Made by a program: the position numbers and the translations under genes. The notes below the pieces were generated by a model that saw only the letters and a list, made by a program, of their open reading frames with translations, was not told where the DNA came from and did no database searches. Positions 15,453-19,411 of a DNA stretch of 64,000 nt are shown piece after piece (positions within the stretch are counted from its first letter, which is position 1; every line of letters starts with the position of its first letter). The stretch spans positions 1-64,000 of the IMG/VR virus record IMGVR_UViG_3300023179_008562; one strand, given 5' to 3'. Source of the DNA: a virus.

Positions 15453-16465
15453 AGATGTCTATATATGTCTAGTAAAATTTTGGAGTCGTAATGCTCGCTA
15501 GAAATATTAGTCAATTGATTGGTGACAATGGTATCTACGCTTTCAAATGCAATATTTCCAATGGCAGTGTCCGAACTCAGATCTAGATTTTTGTTGGGCA
15601 CCAGGGTCATTTCTCTGAGACCATAGGTGCCCACAAACGTTTCCTTGATGAAGGTTGATTCCTCGTAGGTGATATCAATGTCAATGTTAACACGGCAGTG
15701 CATGCCGGGCAACAGCAATTTTTCAGGAGTCTTGAGCACATCACTCAAACCATAGACTCTGTAACGAGGCTGATCAGGCCAGGCATAATACTTCGGCTCT
15801 TGACCCCAAGCGAGTATCATCATACCACGCTCATCATCTCCGGCATCGGCATAGTTATGTGGAAAACAGTTACCAATGTAGGTGATGTTGCCACGTTGTT
15901 GTCGTTTATGAAAGTGCCCAGTAAACACGCGTTCCACCCCGTTAAACGCGTCTTCCCTAATTTCACCATGGTCCGGCATCTGTACCATGGCGTTCATGTA
16001 AAAGTGCGGCAATTCAAAATGTCCAAACATATATTTGGCTTGGATCTTGCCTAGTTTCTTGTGATCATCGCCCACCAACCAAGGCACAATACTGACGTCA
16101 CCTTCAGTGTAGAAGTCATTGACAATTTCAATGTTGGGAATATGTCGAGCCCACTCGGCTGATTGTACATCACGCTTGTCTCTGTAGTACAAATCGTGGT
16201 TACCGGGAATAAAAAACACGCGATCAAAGGCCTGTCCCAACAGTTCCAGCGCAGTGAGACTGTAGTTGAGTGTGACAATGTTGATGGACGCACGATTGTT
16301 GTGCCAGTCACCTGTGACAAAACAGGTGTCACAGCCTTCTGTCTTGGCAGTTGCGATAAACCATTTGACAAAGTTAAGACAGTCGTCGTTGTGTGTCAGA
16401 CTGTTGCTTTTTAATCCAAAATGGATGTCAGTTAACACCGCTGCTTTTTTGAATAAATTACTCAT
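15449..16465 (-). CDS. 47: Recombination endonuclease subunit gp47 (SbcD/Mre11-like)
   Basis: A calcineurin-like metallophosphoesterase of 338 aa from the chosen start. AVLTDIHFG, VTGDWHNN, PGNHDLY and a late GHFHKRQQ are the metal-binding motifs of Mre11/SbcD nucleases. With gp46 it makes the end-resecting nuclease of recombination-dependent replication. I chose the ATG at 16465 because it overlaps the gp55 stop (ATGAGTAA) and starts [17 protein letters not shown]; an ATG five codons upstream (16480) would also work. Confidence 0.93.
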   Translation of the reverse strand: MSNLFKKAAVLTDIHFGLKSNSLTHNDDCLNFVKWFIATAKTEGCDTCFVTGDWHNNRASINIVTLNYSLTALELLGQAFDRVFFIPGNHDLYYRDKRDVQSAEWARHIPNIEIVNDFYTEGDVSIVPWLVGDDHKKLGKIQAKYMFGHFELPHFYMNAMVQMPDHGEIREDAFNGVERVFTGHFHKRQQRGNITYIGNCFPHNYADAGDDERGMMILAWGQEPKYYAWPDQPRYRVYGLSDVLKTPEKLLLPGMHCRVNIDIDITYEESTFIKETFVGTYGLREMTLVPNKNLDLSSDTAIGNIAFESVDTIVTNQLTNISSEHYDSKILLDIYRHL

Positions 16466-17330
16466 CGTAATGGCCACCACCCCATTCGTTTTGTCGGGTA
16501 TAACTGGGATTATAGTTGTTCATTTCCAGGATGTCATCTCGGATGTTCTGGTTGCGTTTTTCTATATTCAATACTCGAGTAAAACTGTTGGTAATAGCAG
16601 CGGTATAATAAGCAAATGGATTCTGTGATTTTGATTCATCAAATTGCAGACCAATCTGACTCAGCTGCAGCAGGGCCTGACTGCGCATCTCGTCGTTGTA
16701 GGTATAGCCTCGCCAGTTGCTGCGTGTGGCATAACGTTCGCACAGTTTGACAAACATATGAGCCAATTTGGGTGTCATGGCACCATGATCTCGACTGAAC
16801 ATGCCAGATTCCAAATCGCCCATCCAATGACTCCGGCCCACCAGCACAGGAGTTAGATCTTCAGTAACCCGGTAGTGTTGAAAAGGTGGGAAGTTGACCT
16901 TGACGTATTTGGCTGGTGCTCGAATCTGTATGGGTGGTTCGTCATATTCGGTCTCTGCCAGTTCATCTTCATAATCTTCCTGTGCTTTGGCGTCAGCCTT
17001 GCGTTGTTTGACATCATCAATGGGAATGTGCTCCCAGGACATGACACGAAAAATAATATCAGTGATGGGCACGGAAGTGGGTGCTATGGTCACGGCCTCT
17101 AATTTGACTTTGTTGCCCTGCGCCAGTTCGGCATCTTGTGCTTCTTTGCTGAGTCTGTCGGCCCGTAATTTTCTGGCCTCGGTGATGGTCTTTTTGGTAA
17201 TCCTGCCAACTGAGTCTACGATCATGTCATAATTGGCATCTTCTGGTGTGGAGAAACTACAGTATGTGATTTTGCTACGGTGTATTTCTTTTAGTATGTC
17301 TTTATTGTTTAGGTAATTGACTTTACGAAT
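16458..17330 (-). CDS. 55: Late transcription sigma factor gp55
   Basis: The late sigma factor directs host RNA polymerase to late promoters. The strongest block is near the C-terminus: [20 protein letters not shown] and the following [20 protein letters not shown], typical of marine T4-like gp55. The N-terminal [19 protein letters not shown] also matches these proteins. An ORF with ATG exists from 17423, but its first 31 codons overlap the homing-endonuclease gene in another frame. I place the native N-terminus at the ATT codon at 17330, seven nt after AAGGGG; ATT initiation is unusual and needs proof. The downstream gp47 overlaps by 8 nt. Confidence 0.85.
17307..17330 (-). repeat. Recoded copy (downstream) of the gp55 start segment
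   Basis: Reads ATT-CGT-AAA-GTC-AAT-TAC-CTA-AAC on the minus strand, giving (start)-RKVNYLN. The same peptide is coded at 18006-18029 with different third bases in six of seven codons. It lies across the end of the homing-endonuclease gene, whose TAA stop (17323-17325) falls inside it. Confidence 0.8.
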
Positions 17331-17976
17331 TTTGATTCCCCTTTTTATCTTGTGCAGCACGTCTGGCCTCTGACCAAGGTTTTCCTCGGTGCACTTTGCC
17401 AATATTTTCTCTGTGTTGTTCACTAAACGGTGCTTTGGGTTTTCCTGCTAGTGACCCGCTAATTTTTTTTCTGTGTTCAGTTGACAATGGTTTATTAATT
17501 TTGGCATTTGACATTTTTTCTTTGGATTCAACTGATCTTGTTTTTCCTTTATTGGATTCACTAATTTTTCTTTTTGTCTCTTCACTACAAGGGCGCTTTG
17601 CTCTATTTTTTGCAGCTATCGATCTTTTTAACCGGGTTTCAGCCGACTCGTTTCTTTTAGCATACGCTAATTTTTCTCTGGTTTCAAGACTTGGATTACT
17701 AATTCCTTCGCCACCATCTGTTCTATTATGCAGAATACCAGTTCCTAAATCTTTACGCCCGTATTCTGCAATCAATTTTTTTTCTAAATCGTGTGCCTGT
17801 TGTTCGGTTAAACTATCTTTAATGAAGATAATATTTGATTGATTTTTGGGAACTGGGGTAAAATGTTTAACATAAGCTCTGTTGCCGGTGCCTTTGCCTA
17901 TGTAATATGGGGTTCCTGATTTGCCTGTATTCGAGTCTTTGTCTCTAAGATAAGCATAAACATAAAAGTTTGACAT
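17323..17976 (-). CDS. GIY-YIG homing endonuclease with NUMOD3 repeats
   Basis: A 217-aa free-standing homing endonuclease. The GIY-YIG domain occupies about residues 4-95: [20 protein letters not shown], the [11 protein letters not shown] helix with the catalytic Glu, and [10 protein letters not shown]. About five NUMOD3-type DNA-binding repeats follow ([30 protein letters not shown] and [15 protein letters not shown] among them), rich in Lys/Arg. It is inserted at the very start of gp55: a copy of the gp55 start segment lies on each side. A CATAAATA late octamer is 17 nt upstream of its ATG and AAAAGG is its ribosome-binding site. Such enzymes spread by cutting alleles that lack them. Confidence 0.92.
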
Positions 17977-17992
17977 AAAATACCTTTTATAT

Positions 17993-18000
17993 TATTTATG
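17993..18000 (-). promoter_or_regulatory. Late promoter octamer CATAAATA before the homing endonuclease
   Basis: CATAAATA on the minus strand lies just after the upstream copy of the gp55 start segment and 17 nt before the endonuclease ATG. Transcription from it would give a very short leader carrying only the AAAAGG ribosome-binding site. It suggests the insert has its own late expression. Confidence 0.5.
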
Positions 18001-18005
18001 CTTCT

Positions 18006-18029
18006 ATTAAGATAATTAACCTTGCGCAC
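18006..18029 (-). repeat. Upstream copy of the gp55 start segment (GTG RKVNYLN)
   Basis: Reads GTG-CGC-AAG-GTT-AAT-TAT-CTT-AAT on the minus strand, giving (start)-RKVNYLN, with AAAAGG nine nt upstream of the GTG. This looks like the original gp55 ribosome-binding site and start. The frame then runs into the endonuclease insert instead of into gp55. Confidence 0.8.
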
Positions 18030-18054
18030 CTGGGTTTTCCTTTTAACAACTACT

Positions 18055-18084
18055 ATTATATAGCAAATAAATATTCAATAGCAA
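18055..18084 (-). promoter_or_regulatory. sigma70-like promoter for the endonuclease-gp55-gp47 unit
   Basis: On the minus strand a perfect TATAAT (18055-18060) follows TTGCTA (18079-18084) with an 18-nt spacer. It is 26 nt upstream of the GTG start of the upstream gp55 segment. A host-type promoter fits the need to make gp55 before late transcription begins. Confidence 0.6.
18066..18073 (+). promoter_or_regulatory. Late promoter octamer AATAAATA for the tail block
   Basis: AATAAATA on the plus strand ends 27 nt before the first structural gene of the rightward block (ATG 18101). The same octamer precedes gp6 (25295-25302) and a fibre gene (45938-45945). It overlaps the spacer of the divergent sigma70-like promoter. 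Confidence 0.6.
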
Positions 18085-18100
18085 AGGTTTATCTACCAAA

Positions 18101-19411
18101 ATGGCAATCTTTCTCCCTGATTCTCAAGTGGCTGACCCCATCACCGGGCAAACTGTGAGTTTTGGCTCACTGTCCCGAGATAATCAGGCGGCAGTCATGG
18201 AACAACAATACGCTGGTGAACGCGCCGATTTCAGATCTGCTGCAGGAGCATTGCGGCAGGCTGACTCCACCACCAATTCAGATCAGCAGATGAGTGATTA
18301 CTCTACGCCAGCCACCACCAATGGTGGATTTGTGGTGGGTGACGATGGCACAGTTTATGCACCATCAGGTGCAGTGAATGGTCAGCTCACCAGTTTTCCT
18401 GATGCAGCACAGGGCGACACCACATATTTTGGTGGTGGTACACAGGATGCATTTGCTGATACCTACTATAATGACGCTGGATCTGAAATAGGTACCACCA
18501 CAAATTTTGGCGATGGGCCCGACACTAATTTCAATCCTGAAGCCGACAACACTGCTGCATTGAGTGACCCCACTGCTGCCAGACAGGACGCCAGTGGGCT
18601 ACCGCCTGGCGGTGAACCACCAGGCGCCACCGGCGACACTCAGGTGGCGTTTCAGGCCACCAACGATGCCACACCATCAGCAGCTGATAGTGACTGGCGG
18701 GTGAGAATCAGCCTGGCCGACGGTGCCAACATATTTTACAAATCCACTGGCAGTAATCAGAATGAATTAATGCGGCCTCTGATTGAAACCAATGGTGTCA
18801 TCTGGCCCTATACTCCGGCCATCACTGTGACACATTCGGCCACTTATAATCAGACCAATCTGACACACAGCAACTATAACCCAAGTTTTTACCACCATAG
18901 TGATGTATCGGACATCAGCATCAGTGGTGAATTCACAGTACAGAGCCAGGAAGAAGGTCGATATCTCATGGCTGCGGTTTACTTTTTCAGATCAGCCACC
19001 AAGATGTTCTTTGGACAAGGGGCCAATGTGGGCAATCCTCCACCCATAGTGTTCCTGGACGGTTATGGTAGTCATTATTTTCCACACGTGCCCTGTGTGA
19101 TCACCAGTTTTGCTCACACCCTGCCAGCTGATGTGGATTATATCAGCGTGGACATCACCAGTTCAGAAATGGTGACCACCAGCACAGGGCCTGCCAGAAA
19201 CATCAGCCAAAATGGCGGCATCAGTGGCGGCCGAACTCGCGAACTTAAGACTGTGACCACCAGCACCCGAGTGCCCACCATGAGCACCATTGCGGTCACA
19301 GTCAAGCCCATGTACAGTCGCAAGAATTTGCATGACCGATTTAACCTGGACAAATTTGCTGCTGGGCTGTTGTTGGCAGACAGAAAAAATGGATATGGGG
19401 GATTCATCTGA
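18101..19411 (+). CDS. Virion structural protein, probably tail-tube/baseplate junction
   Basis: A 436-aa protein. Residues about 1-195 are low-complexity, Ala/Asp/Thr/Gly-rich and probably flexible. The folded part begins near SDWRVRISLADGANIFYKS and holds IWPYTPAITVTHSATYNQ and FFRSATKMFFGQ segments, recurring in a conserved structural protein of aquatic T4-like phages. It stands just before gp53 and upstream of gp5, gp25 and gp6, so a baseplate role is likely. It could fill the role of T4 gp48 or gp54 at the tube-baseplate junction, but I see no decisive similarity. Its TGA overlaps the gp53 ATG by 1 nt. Confidence 0.6.
   Translation: MAIFLPDSQVADPITGQTVSFGSLSRDNQAAVMEQQYAGERADFRSAAGALRQADSTTNSDQQMSDYSTPATTNGGFVVGDDGTVYAPSGAVNGQLTSFPDAAQGDTTYFGGGTQDAFADTYYNDAGSEIGTTTNFGDGPDTNFNPEADNTAALSDPTAARQDASGLPPGGEPPGATGDTQVAFQATNDATPSAADSDWRVRISLADGANIFYKSTGSNQNELMRPLIETNGVIWPYTPAITVTHSATYNQTNLTHSNYNPSFYHHSDVSDISISGEFTVQSQEEGRYLMAAVYFFRSATKMFFGQGANVGNPPPIVFLDGYGSHYFPHVPCVITSFAHTLPADVDYISVDITSSEMVTTSTGPARNISQNGGISGGRTRELKTVTTSTRVPTMSTIAVTVKPMYSRKNLHDRFNLDKFAAGLLLADRKNGYGGFI

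Follow-up and report, generated by a model that had tools for sequence, protein, structure and literature searches.

Introduction

In fungal mitochondria, mORF hybrids have been described in atp6, atp9, cox2 and nad3 of Glomus, in atp6 of Allomyces macrogynus and in atp9 of Rhizopus oryzae; the 3' end of the gene is replaced by an incoming copy with 64-81% DNA identity and 94-100% protein identity, and the native end is left behind (PMC3630166). The seg genes of phage T4 are GIY-YIG endonuclease genes located outside introns, beside essential genes; they are intergenic, their enzymes cut at a distance from the place of insertion, and elements needed by a neighbour can be embedded in a T4 endonuclease gene, which favours its retention (PMC2988022). 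In phage Aeh1, the HNH endonuclease gene mobE lies inside the essential gene nrdA, whose function survives (references in PMC3014915; PMC10448857), and nrdA is split into two working polypeptides (PMC10448857). An engineered system, HomeR, places a nuclease at an essential gene together with a re-coded gene end that restores the gene (PMC7968924).

Here we describe a GIY-YIG homing endonuclease gene inserted at the start of the late sigma factor gene gp55 in a stretch of viral DNA of 64,000 nucleotides (IMGVR_UViG_3300023179_008562, positions 1-64,000), referred to below as the window. gp55 is an essential gene, as is known from T4. Like the fungal mORFs (LAGLIDADG enzymes, and GIY-YIG in atp9), the window element consists of a free-standing endonuclease within an essential gene, with a duplicated terminus that is divergent in DNA and conserved in protein (PMC3630166). 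Unlike the fungal mORFs, which belong to the 3' (C-terminal) end of mitochondrial genes (PMC3630166), it occupies the 5' (N-terminal) end of a phage gene, supplying both a fresh ribosome-binding site and a start codon; it is one of seven lineages at a single site for which insert-free relatives exist. The window element works like a fungal mORF hybrid in mirror image and is not filed as a member of that class. It shares with the seg genes a GIY-YIG enzyme outside an intron, but the review of the seg genes describes no duplicated or re-spelled start (PMC2988022). It shares with mobE a position inside an essential phage gene, but differs from it in that Aeh1 nrdA works as two polypeptides. HomeR is alike in logic but differs in being artificial, based on Cas9, directed to a 3' end and built in an insect, and there is no relationship between the two (PMC7968924). 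A search of open-access papers gave no report of a homing gene at gp55, of a 5' rescue start or of a phage version of this arrangement. To our knowledge, mobE and nrdA of Aeh1 show no terminus duplication. The 5'-end phage version at gp55 appears to be new, while the logic of rescue by a duplicated terminus is already known from fungi. From the comparison of sequences, we consider it likely that a free-standing GIY-YIG homing element targets the first codons of gp55 and carries a re-spelled rescue start.

Organization of the locus

The locus was read on the minus strand from 18110 to 16440 (Table 1). Direct reading of this strand confirmed the first-pass annotation, which had claimed that the peptide RKVNYLN is coded twice with six of the seven codons differing, at the third base only. 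Its claim that a purine-rich ribosome-binding sequence precedes each copy also held, with AAAAGGAAAA upstream and AAAAAGGGG downstream. The GIY-YIG gene had been placed exactly between the copies; the order of remnant, ORF and second start was as claimed, but the end of the ORF reaches into the second copy, where the endonuclease stop (TCG TAA) overlaps the downstream gp55 start. The leader ahead of the remnant contained a TATATAAT-type box followed by AAAAGGAAAA, and the ATAAATA box and AAAAGG were both located in the 29-nt stretch between the remnant and the endonuclease ORF. The spacing from AAAAAGGGG to the ATT start was 7 nt, and GGGGAATCAAAATTCGTAAAGT was conserved at the gp55-serving ribosome-binding site of lineage B. 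An assembly artefact was ruled out by the occurrence of the same architecture in many independent contigs.

The gp55 product was identified by its match to 'sigma factor for late transcription' (phrog_12791) and is of the T4 type. The endonuclease ORF matched NUMOD3 (E 2e-7), the only domain given by Pfam, and the homing endonuclease family phrog_314 (E 8e-16). The GIY-YIG motif, including the catalytic Arg, Glu and Asn, was present, with Y7, Y24, Y25, G27, R33, E65 and N84 invariant in the seven lineages. The predicted structure was a low-confidence model (pLDDT 66.7, pTM 0.33) for which Foldseek gave no meaningful match, and a sequence search of the PDB gave one weak GIY-YIG match (E 0.68).

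Table 1. Features of the gp55 locus in the window
Feature	Position	Strand	Evidence
Original gp55 ribosome-binding site AAAAGGAAAA	18035..18044	-	Direct reading; leader shared with insert-free starts, e.g. L270, L005 and L008
Upstream remnant of the gp55 start, GTG CGC AAG GTT AAT TAT CTT AAT	18006..18029	-	Direct reading; match to insert-free relatives
ATAAATA box, possible late promoter, between remnant and endonuclease	17993..17999	-	Kept in 7/7 lineages
Endonuclease ribosome-binding site AAAAGG	17988-17983	-	Upstream of the 217-aa ORF
GIY-YIG/NUMOD3 homing endonuclease ORF, 217 aa	17323..17976	-	NUMOD3, phrog_314, invariant motif residues
Element-borne ribosome-binding site AAAAAGGGG serving gp55, within the endonuclease 3' end	17338..17346	-	Direct reading
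Element-borne re-spelled gp55 start, ATT CGT AAA GTC AAT TAC CTA AAC	17307..17330	-	Overlaps with the stop of the endonuclease ORF
gp55 late-transcription sigma factor, 290 aa counted from ATT	16458..17330	-	phrog_12791 E 2e-78

Recurrence of the insertion in related phages

Relatives were gathered by searches with gp55, the endonuclease and a DNA pattern; the gp55 relatives in named phages had less than 60% identity. Seven endonuclease lineages, A (the window) and B to G, were inserted after the identical gp55 codon (Table 2), and the comparison of these loci documents the insertion point. The complete re-spelled downstream start was present in six of the seven, the contig of lineage F ending inside the start. 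That six further lineages show the arrangement at this very codon makes the duplicated start more than chance. Synonymy was broken at one codon in lineage E (ATA to CAA) and by a change of Lys to Arg in lineages C and D.

Table 2. Upstream remnant and downstream start in the other six lineages
Lineage	Loci	Remnant	Downstream start
B	L162, L237, L238, L239, L241	ATG AGA AAG GTA AAT TAC CTA AAT	ATT CGT AAA GTC AAC TAT TTA AAT (GTT in L162)
C	L082	ATG AGA AAG GTG AAT TAT CTT AAT	ATG ACC CGT CGC GTG AAC TAC TTA AAC
D	L004, L164	AGT AAA GTA AAT TAC CTA AAT (start codon lost)	ATG GCA AGA CGT GTG AAC TAT TTG AAT
E	L165	ATG ACA AGA AAA ATA AAT TAT TTA AAT	ATG CGT AAG CAA AAT TAT CTA AAC
F	L166	AAG GTT AAT TAC CTT AAT	ATT AAA ATA AAT TAT TT
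G	L382	ATG AGT AAA GTT AAG TAT TTG AAT	ATT CGT AAA GTC AAC TAC CTC AAC

When 133 gp55 proteins were placed on a tree, at least six changes were needed to account for occupied loci; these represent independent placements, most of them beside an empty relative. Occupied and empty loci were grouped as the window with L270, L004 with L003, L082 with L249, lineage B with L242, and L299 with L039 and L045. The element has thus spread horizontally into one site at which occupied and empty alleles are both present. L299 is a decayed eighth locus, in which the leader of the empty relatives L039 and L045 is followed by the last ~57 residues of the endonuclease and an ATT start with re-spelled codons, and it documents one stage of decay.

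A habit common to the whole endonuclease family was disfavoured: among 90 matches, L130 set aside, gp55 was the one place with a convincing duplicated peptide flanking the enzyme (6-residue windows, which short repeats may escape). In L130, another phage, a long peptide repeat (STGYPPIPFSV..) around 2994 and 3750 flanks a related endonuclease and may be an ordinary direct repeat. The L164 record (G001, 329,321 bases) belongs to a large phage and holds 18 matches to the family, which is unusually many. Between gp55 and an sbcD-like gene lay another GIY-YIG-like ORF, distinct from the first, in L082 (2603-3274), L004 (2986-3657) and L005 (4932-5516); L082 and L005 were 100% identical over 637 bp from the gp55 end while their gp55 genes were 85% identical, which suggests recent transfer. 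Relatives of the endonuclease are also labelled 'translation initiation factor 2' (MW015081.1, 62533-63177; MN095788-type records; Synechococcus phages S-SRM01 and B23), and this label is probably a misannotation.

Origin of the two starts

The upstream copy had been proposed to be the original start left behind as a remnant, and the empty relatives of lineages B and C bear this out. The start of L242 was identical to the lineage B remnant at 24/24 bases, with a near-identical leader, and it shares only 1/7 codons with the lineage B downstream copy. The 959 bp leading exactly to the junction were 97.3% identical between L249 and L082, the identity in gp55 beyond it being 87.5%, and the L249 start (ATG ACA CGA AAG GTG AAT TAT CTC AAC) equals the lineage C upstream copy except for a 3-nt gap and two bases. 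These comparisons settle the direction in two lineages. The expectation that insert-free starts would match the upstream copy stood for L242 and L249, but L270, the empty sister of the window with 85% nucleotide identity in gp55, was ambiguous for the seven codons of the window, with six differences from the upstream copy and four from the downstream copy. The leader and the first two codons (CGC AAG) of L270 match the upstream side of the window. Owing to this ambiguity, the window alone could not have settled the direction.

In lineage D, L004 differed from its empty sister L003 at seven positions in the downstream seven codons and at none in the next 14, and the start was the most divergent window of gp55, with none equal elsewhere. 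L003 also had five differences from the lineage D remnant, so it is not close to the remnant either. The seven codons formed the most divergent 7-codon window of gp55 when L082 was compared with L007 or L005 and L004 with L003 or L002; two other gp55 windows were equally divergent between L082 and L249, and the site was not unusually divergent between the window and L270.

The claim that the element brought its own gp55 start was also borne out. Lineages A, B and G, which lie in separate gp55 clades, have in common the start ATT CGT AAA GTC and a related endonuclease tail, and lineages C and D have in common RRVNYLN and another tail. The downstream start follows the endonuclease 3' end and not the gp55 lineage, which implies that the start is element-borne. 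In the DNA, tail and start are adjacent or overlapping and would be able to move as a unit. A rescue start travelling on a homing gene is a well-supported reading of the locus.

Re-spelling of the start and fate of the remnant

In the six lineages with both copies readable, 81% of synonymous codons differed between a locus's own upstream and own downstream copies, versus 54% when starts were paired between different insert-free phages (resampling uncorrected for phylogeny, P about 5e-5). Mismatched pairs of remnant and downstream copy differed at 67%, and permutation of matched versus mismatched pairs gave P 0.07-0.14 only. The spelling AAT TAY YTN AAT, a rule spotted post hoc, occurred in 6/7 remnants and 19/108 insert-free starts (P 4e-4) and in 0/6 downstream copies. 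Its absence from the downstream copies is consistent with the resistance to cleavage by which a home-and-rescue system is recognized. The idea of the first-pass annotation, that the re-spelling is a synonymous shield against cleavage, is plausible on these data, which are accommodated equally by a block on recombination between the copies and by a rescue of gp55 in which codons were not selected. However, most native starts lack AAT..AAT, so the downstream copies need not have been selected, and I-TevI and similar GIY-YIG enzymes tolerate many changes in their sites (PMC2988022), so that third-base changes alone might not stop cutting.

The re-spelling could also be a device against recombination, since phage recombination across identical 21-bp repeats could delete the endonuclease, or a cut recipient could be repaired off the downstream copy and never acquire the endonuclease. 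We rate this a real possibility, a little short of even. The longest run common to a locus's own copies averaged 5.3 nt versus 7.1 nt in native pairs (P about 0.05), and engineered rescue drives keep rescue and target free of shared sequence for the same reason (PMC7968924); on the other hand, 21 bp is a short repeat, and the shield fits the same data, from which sequence cannot separate the two. The two purposes need not exclude each other.

The remnant may be more than mere debris. The remnant and ATAAATA persist in each of the seven lineages, even in D and F, whose remnants have lost their start codon. Boxes similar to ATAAATA also precede other ORFs of the window. In our judgement it is somewhat unlikely that a function preserves the upstream copy, whether as a half-site operator beside a late promoter of the endonuclease or as a small upstream ORF that restrains translation of the endonuclease, with the downstream copy being simply the working start. 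The constancy just described argues for such a function, as does the case of I-TevI, where an operator similar to the homing site overlaps the late promoter (PMC2988022), but the remnants may just be recent or be renewed by homologous repair at each transfer, and the operator is only a candidate. A conserved leader was observed before endonuclease genes in L382 (1262-1342), L165 (2885-2979) and L205 (2915-3001), in which ATAAATA is followed by GTGTAG..CGCGG..CCCGACTACTC, which probably forms a hairpin; Rfam had no family matching this leader, and in L205 the endonuclease that it precedes lies downstream of gp55.

It is unlikely that no selection on codons was involved and that the start was picked up from an earlier, diverged host phage, with ordinary divergence and decay of an unused remnant. 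The downstream copies are broadly like ordinary starts: the spelling of the lineage B copy occurs without an insert too, being identical to the start of L003, and 89/108 native starts have no AAT..AAT. The fungal cases have likewise been interpreted as horizontal transfer (PMC3630166). Against this, the two copies within a locus are further apart than are the starts of different phages, the remnants match insert-free relatives instead of decaying, and a non-cleavable start would still be logically needed if the enzyme cuts there. Finally, a mobile intron or intein with an incidental duplication is extremely improbable, common as such carriers are for homing endonucleases. Rfam intron families gave no match in 16400-18200 up to E = 1, most of the 675 nt separating the copies is taken up by the ORF, which leaves a ribozyme no space, and the downstream copy is preceded by a separate ribosome-binding site. 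The endonuclease is a free-standing (intronless) homing gene, with neither intron nor intein around it.

Proposed mechanism

In the proposed mechanism of a homing element with a rescue start, the enzyme would cut phages with an intact gp55 start, and donor-templated repair would put the endonuclease after codon 8, so that the leader and first eight codons of the recipient stay as the remnant. Because the essential gene would lose its beginning on insertion, the element brings a rescue start: comparison of the lineages shows in its 3' end a ribosome-binding site, a start codon that is often ATT, and some seven re-spelled codons with which the frame of the resident gp55 is resumed. The re-spelling would most likely be dual in effect, the new start being no target and the 21-bp repeat being unusable for endonuclease-free repair or deletion. 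At the next transfer, the leader and remnant would probably serve as the left homology arm, with gp55 as the right arm. The endonuclease would be expressed late from ATAAATA, and the remnant may double as an operator of this promoter; a sequence like the homing site is found at the late promoter of I-TevI, which represses itself (PMC2988022), and the likeness suggests such a role here. Ribosomes would initiate gp55 at ATT, perhaps on finishing the endonuclease. By holding an essential gene's start, the element would also be guarded against deletion, as has been proposed for embedded promoters in T4 (PMC2988022).

We hold more tentatively, as possible but well short of even, the full reading of the element as a natural phage home-and-rescue drive, which would break the start of the late sigma gene, carry a cleavage-proof ATT start, synonymously re-coded and equipped with a ribosome-binding site, use the former start both as a homology arm and as an operator for repressing itself, and leave behind, once decayed, a resistant ATT-start gp55 as a scar. 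The label ATT, with occupied loci included, required 13 changes on the gp55 tree, at least 10 of them forced by well-supported branches. Insert-free ATT starts are possibly scars of lost elements, or else a regulated weak start. Upstream of the other ATT-start gp55 genes, fossil endonuclease fragments were found only in L299, so the idea of ATT as a scar has one clear case.

Apparent ATT starts after a strong GGAG-type site were observed in the insert-free gp55 genes of L026, L027, L028, L033, L040, L044, L047, L052, L274, L303, L306, L310, L315, L316, L317, L378 and L384.

Significance

The locus represents a homing gene inside an essential coding sequence that does without an intron or intein by means of a carried 5'-end rescue. 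Annotators should be aware that the gp55 genes of these phages may begin at ATT and overlap an endonuclease gene. If true, a home-and-rescue drive that leaves scars would explain the many scattered insert-free ATT-start gp55 genes. Seven natural versions, together with empty relatives and a decay stage, provide a comparative system for the co-evolution of nuclease and target at synonymous sites, which also bears on how natural drives meet the resistance problem of engineered rescue drives.
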